A stretch of 37,980 nt of DNA from Gammaproteobacteria bacterium. GTDB lineage: Bacteria; Pseudomonadota; Gammaproteobacteria; GCA-001735895. The notes under the pieces are model-generated. The model was not told where the DNA came from. It made no database searches and saw nothing but the letters and a program-made list of their open reading frames with translations. The translations under genes and the position numbers were made by a program. The stretch spans positions 1-37,980 of the forward strand of contig JAAEPH010000483.1 in the NCBI GenBank assembly GCA_024232855.1, given 5' to 3'. Within the stretch, counting starts at the first letter, position 1. Every line of letters starts with the position of its first letter. Shown here piece by piece: positions 34,164 to 34,217 of the stretch.

Positions 34164-34193
34164 TTGACTGATAGACCGAATTCACCCTAAAAT
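34164..34193 (+). promoter_or_regulatory. Candidate sigma70 promoter of the HpsN-like operon
   Basis: TTGACT (34164-34169), 18-nt spacer, TAAAAT (34188-34193); the -10 lies inside the palindromic operator. Confidence 0.5.
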
Positions 34194-34217
34194 GTAAGCG
34201 CTTACATTTTAGGGTGA
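34182..34217. promoter_or_regulatory. Perfect 36-bp palindromic operator, LacI-family type
   Basis: TCACCCTAAAATGTAAGC|GCTTACATTTTAGGGTGA with central TGTAAGCGCTTACA; between divergent lacI-family gene and hpsN. Confidence 0.85.

Follow-up and report, generated by a model that had tools for sequence, protein, structure and literature searches.

The region upstream of hpsN in this gammaproteobacterial genome raises the question of why an apparently simple repressor operator should sit at the centre of a perfect 36-bp palindrome, and whether the outer part of that symmetry serves the regulator, a nucleic acid structure or neither. The whole stretch of DNA analysed (37,980 nt, hereafter the window) carries the following features around the site; G017, G391 and G394 are close species.

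32984-34063, minus strand: LacI-family regulator, 359 aa, with a basic N-terminal extension of ~24 aa (Pfam LacI HTH and Peripla_BP_3; alignment)
34164-34169, plus strand: -35 element TTGACT of the hpsN promoter, a consensus match; TTGAC is kept in G017, G391 and G394
34182-34217, no strand: 36-bp palindrome with perfect symmetry, made up of operator core and outer arms
34182-34192, no strand: left outer arm TCACCCTAAAA, which holds most of the -10 element, the other bases of the arm falling in the promoter spacer
34188-34193, plus strand: -10 element TAAAAT, after an 18-bp spacer; TAAAAT is kept in G017, G391 and G394
34193-34206, no strand: putative LacI-family operator core TGTAAGCGCTTACA, a single exact copy in the genome, kept upstream of regulator/hpsN in relatives
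34207-34217, no strand: right outer arm TTTTAGGGTGA, lying in the 5' leader and running into the Shine-Dalgarno sequence; fast-changing in congeners
34216-34220, plus strand: Shine-Dalgarno sequence GAGGA of hpsN
34226-35536, plus strand: hpsN, sulfopropanediol (DHPS) 3-dehydrogenase, 436 aa; closest solved relative 8v35 (E 2.8e-177), Pfam Histidinol_dh
35572-36348, plus strand: hpsO-like SDR dehydrogenase; best match 8wwf, (R)-DHPS dehydrogenase HpsO (E 3.9e-84)
36645-37649, plus strand: hpsP-like zinc alcohol dehydrogenase; best match 8wwd (E 1.2e-108; next 2e-35)

The palindrome, TCACCCTAAAATGTAAGCGCTTACATTTTAGGGTGA, is real and not a product of chance. As the sequence-only reading had stated, its symmetry at 34182-34217 is exact: two arms of 18 bp, 100% complementary, without mismatch or spacer, meet at an axis between 34199 and 34200. 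It is the one perfect spacerless palindrome with arms of at least 10 bp in the window, and also in the 438 kb formed by the window and same-genus DNA. In 838 kb of mixed loci it is the longest of its kind, the nearest being a congener's with 17-bp arms, and the other palindromes there with arms of at least 10 bp are mostly LacI-type operators too.

At its centre, TGTAAGCGCTTACA has the makings of an ordinary LacI-family operator. It is an even palindrome with a central CG, and the motif is kept with the lacI-hpsN pair upstream of orthologous regulators and targets, in agreement with the LacI-family site proposed earlier. The survey of LacI-family operators (PMC4052901) describes these same traits together with a local regulator beside its target operon and a position just upstream of the start codon, all found here. 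The locus departs from that survey in that its end lies 8 nt from the start codon, against a usual zone of 30-140 bp, and in length: LacI-family motifs span 16-22 nt, whereas here the conserved part covers 14-20 bp and perfect symmetry 36 bp, so that the symmetry does go beyond the usual operator, as had been suggested. A genome scan for the core, which the earlier reading had proposed as a way to define the regulon, located one exact match in the whole 4.15-Mb genome and no wider regulon. Sites with two mismatches were as frequent as in a reversed control, and of four such sites the three that were examined lie in or near unrelated genes; control beyond the hpsN operon was ruled out on these grounds.

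The regulator shows both expected domains above cut-off (PF00356, 59.5 bits; PF13377, 114.8 bits), has PurR and CcpA relatives in the PDB, and starts divergently from hpsN, 118 bp from the palindrome, the distance given before. Its N-terminal extension of ~24 aa is rich in K and R. The naming of the target gene also held up, the PDB match being a sulfopropanediol 3-dehydrogenase, while for 36645-37649 we infer the name HpsP from two adjacent PDB entries, 8wwe/8wwf, together with PMC11131964. The hps clusters of Roseobacteraceae and Cupriavidus (PMC11131964, PMC11382572) likewise combine HpsN with HpsO- and HpsP-like dehydrogenases, a regulator and a transporter nearby; unlike them, the present cluster is gammaproteobacterial, with hpsN first and one long-armed operator, whereas many roseobacter regulators of the clade have two. 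Adjoining the hps genes, 26161-32639 encodes an IclR regulator, a fused TRAP permease (826 aa, DctQ+DctM), a TRAP binding protein and a GMC oxidoreductase. No copy of the operator core was found in that segment, and these genes may therefore be under the IclR regulator.

The hpsN promoter, TTGACT-18-TAAAAT, matches the consensus at 10 of 12 positions. Its -10 lies almost wholly in the left arm, and the right end of the palindrome touches the GAGGA of hpsN, so that the overlaps with promoter and ribosome-binding region described earlier are both present; the ATG at 34226 follows 8 nt past the palindrome. Placed by consensus only, the +1 would fall near 34200, at the axis of the palindrome, and by its sequence the layout is that of a repressor operator set on the start site. 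Just past the palindrome, a promoter-like TTGATA-17-TATCCT with a TG extension (34217-34245, minus strand) points toward lacI. If this promoter is real, a single operator would cover both divergent start sites and provide autoregulation.

We also surveyed the operator in relatives. The sequence ATGTAAGCGCTTACAT occurs in 6 of 41 family genomes, always in front of hpsN. Among 80 regulator loci in GTDB genomes, 42 have an hpsN-like gene up to about 4 kb upstream and 28 have two operators 20-24 bp apart. Loci with two cores about two helical turns apart belong to distant members (L008, L025, L026, L028) and to many Rhodobacteraceae. In place of one site, two and sometimes three TGTAAGCGCTTACA-like sites at a spacing of 20-23 bp were noted in L008 (2439-2494), L025 (2666-2701), L026, L028 and many Rhodobacteraceae loci (L053, L055, L060, L064, L090, L101). 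LacI-family sites spaced 20-24 bp apart are known to act cooperatively, and the 22-bp tandem layout described in the survey recurs in the relatives (PMC4052901); judged by their spacing, the double operators are likely cooperative. The genus of the window has a single core, with the exception of G014, and the window itself holds no second core two helical turns away. One regulator clade thus uses either one or two operators.

The outer arms were compared on the hpsN strand in close orthologues, of which four species were informative:

G000 (this genome): TTCACCCTAAAA-core-TTTTAGGGTGAG, perfect over 36 bp
G017: TCCCACCTAAAA-core-TTTTAGGTGGAG, perfect over 34 bp, with letters that differ from those of G000
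G391: ATCAACCTAAAA-core-TTTCAACACGAG, symmetry broken
G394: GTCACTCTAAAA-core-TTCCAGGGG-AG, symmetry broken

The outer arms, whose lack of conservation at orthologous loci was to count against the earlier reading, are thus conserved by half: the symmetry persists in G017 with different letters and is absent from G391 and G394. Among 65 distinct exact-core sites, symmetry beyond the core amounts to 0-6 bp except in G000 (11) and G017 (10). At 32 sites beyond the genus the flanks are not consistently more symmetric than expected, and a general extension of the motif in the clade was ruled out on this basis. A tree built on hpsN and lacI puts G017 with G391/G015 (support 99); the species with perfect palindromes are therefore not sisters. 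Their arms differ at two adjacent positions, in step on both sides. We simulated independent neutral drift from a perfect ancestor and scored the event that both species carry perfect palindromes that differ from each other in at least two positions; its probability was at most 9e-5 at every rate tried. With this value below 1e-4 under independent change, the arms have changed in concert. Among the four species the right arm, in the leader, is highly variable; the left arm, with the -10 in it, is conserved.

What could have made two arms change together? The lineage's repressor may reach as far as the outer arms, perhaps with its basic N-terminal extension, selection then keeping them symmetric. 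The perfect arms in two species fit this, as does the absence of the ~24-aa K/R-rich extension from tandem-operator relatives such as L008 and L026; residues of the extension also differ between G000 and G017, so that arm and tail could co-vary. However, G391 and G394 have the same recognition part of the HTH and the same kind of basic extension with the arms gone, which breaks the tie between arms and extension and suggests that outer symmetry is not needed for recognition. Protein contact moreover predicts conserved letters rather than symmetric letter changes, known LacI-family motifs do not exceed 22 nt (PMC4052901), and flanks outside the genus lack consistent extra symmetry. We regard such an extended operator as unlikely, though worth keeping in mind. 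A second binding site nested on the same axis, for another LacI dimer or a different regulator, draws on the frequency of paired operators at cooperative spacing among the regulator's relatives, and the sequence-only reading had proposed that the flanks bind a second dimer. The data speak against it: no second core with up to three mismatches was found anywhere in the window, few arm letters are common across species, two dimers centred on one axis would collide, and the clade, where it adds an operator, adds a full second core 20-24 bp away. This is the least credible of the explanations considered.

Symmetric co-change of letters is also what a stem predicts. A DNA cruciform could limit promoter opening in supercoiled DNA, or an RNA hairpin in transcripts reading through from upstream could hide the Shine-Dalgarno sequence and stop hpsN translation. 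Folded as RNA, the whole palindrome reaches -22.2 kcal/mol with a 4-nt loop and extends to the Shine-Dalgarno sequence, and there is a described case of an E. coli promoter regulated by a cruciform (Horwitz and Loeb 1988, cited in PMC6060812). From the predicted +1, however, one arm is transcribed and its fold is no better than shuffles, and the structure is absent in two of the four close species (G391 and G394). The mRNA hairpin suggested earlier was thus discarded as the main reading, since the predicted transcript begins at the axis and conservation of the stem is lacking. A riboregulator would hold both arms in its transcript and keep its stem in orthologues; G391 and G394 have no such stem, and the consensus-based +1 leaves one arm. 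A search of Rfam gave no family above its cut-off, and terminator prediction was negative. Structural control of either kind seems rather improbable to us. Retention of an ancestral perfect palindrome by two species, with coincidence and no special process, would account for the outer-arm letters that G000 and G017 mostly share; the simulated probability of two in-step changes leaves it very little room.

The reading we lean towards, with modest confidence, joins a single LacI-type operator on the hpsN start with copying of one arm onto the other by template switching. The proposed mechanism is simple repression: one repressor dimer would bind the 14-bp core, probably over 16-20 bp in all. The core overlies the predicted hpsN start, with the -10 on one side and the ribosome-binding site on the other, and the bound dimer would block RNA polymerase until an inducer, probably DHPS or a catabolite, released it. 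Replication may stall at the hairpin-prone core, switch template and copy one arm onto the other, as in quasipalindrome correction. Such copying could have both created and maintained the symmetry beyond the core, with recognition having no need of it. Because the right arm is variable and the left arm, with the -10, conserved, the left arm is the likely donor, held by promoter constraints, while the right arm would be free to be overwritten.

In E. coli, an 18-bp quasipalindrome in lacZ is an established site of template switching (PMC7202029), and RNA genes show concerted stem changes that are consistent with it (PMC8794818). The hpsN site resembles these cases in that an imperfect inverted repeat becomes perfect, the arms change together and the core is short and hairpin-forming; here, unlike there, the process is deduced from a species comparison at a repressor operator rather than seen as mutation. 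In G000 and G017 the arms are identical within each species and different between them, and G391, G394, G011 and L042 show the quasipalindromic state. The predicted single-strand DNA hairpins reach -15.2 kcal/mol in G000 and -14.3 kcal/mol in G017. G011 and the more distant L042 have 6-bp arms shifted out of register by 1-2 nt; these are individually marginal (P 0.03-0.04), and copying accounts for them more readily than a symmetric dimer would. Counting against copying, symmetry strictly selected in two species and relaxed in the other two would look the same. In addition, 438 kb of the genus contain no other spacerless palindrome of similar length, though mutational copying should make more; hairpins with loops and arms of 16 and 15 bp in the same DNA may be further cases.

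The operator itself is ordinary, and the evolution of its arms is mildly unusual, with a mutational origin of the long arms plausible from the sequence comparison. In the literature searched we found no paper on a LacI-type hpsN operator or on extended LacI palindromes, and evidently none on template switching at operators. For a gammaproteobacterial lineage, the locus provides a probable operator and regulator for the catabolism of DHPS, a compound of importance as a sulfur-carbon currency in the sea. It also indicates that symmetry at a regulatory site, even when co-varying, need not signal that binding or an RNA stem is under selection, and offers a natural and compact setting in which to test arm-copying mutation at operators. 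More speculatively, and doubtfully, tightly bound operators might themselves seed the copying, replication stalled at a bound core extending the symmetry outward. Operator flanks, promoter spacer and Shine-Dalgarno region would then be coupled and evolve in concert.

Several minor observations concern hpsN and its regulator in this genus. In G015 no lacI was found in the genome, and contig C14 (L123) stops within the right arm, 14 nt upstream of hpsN, as though the palindrome had broken the assembly. In the congeners G010 (C187, L009/L040) and G013 (C204, L014/L127), a deletion that extends into the region upstream of hpsN has truncated lacI; that of G010 ends at the operator core, and its hpsN is split as well. 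These truncations suggest either repeated repressor loss or MAG assembly errors. Finally, the genome of the window carries a second hpsN-like gene (G000:C314:3779-4945, L147), 59% identical and with an in-frame TGA in its open frame.
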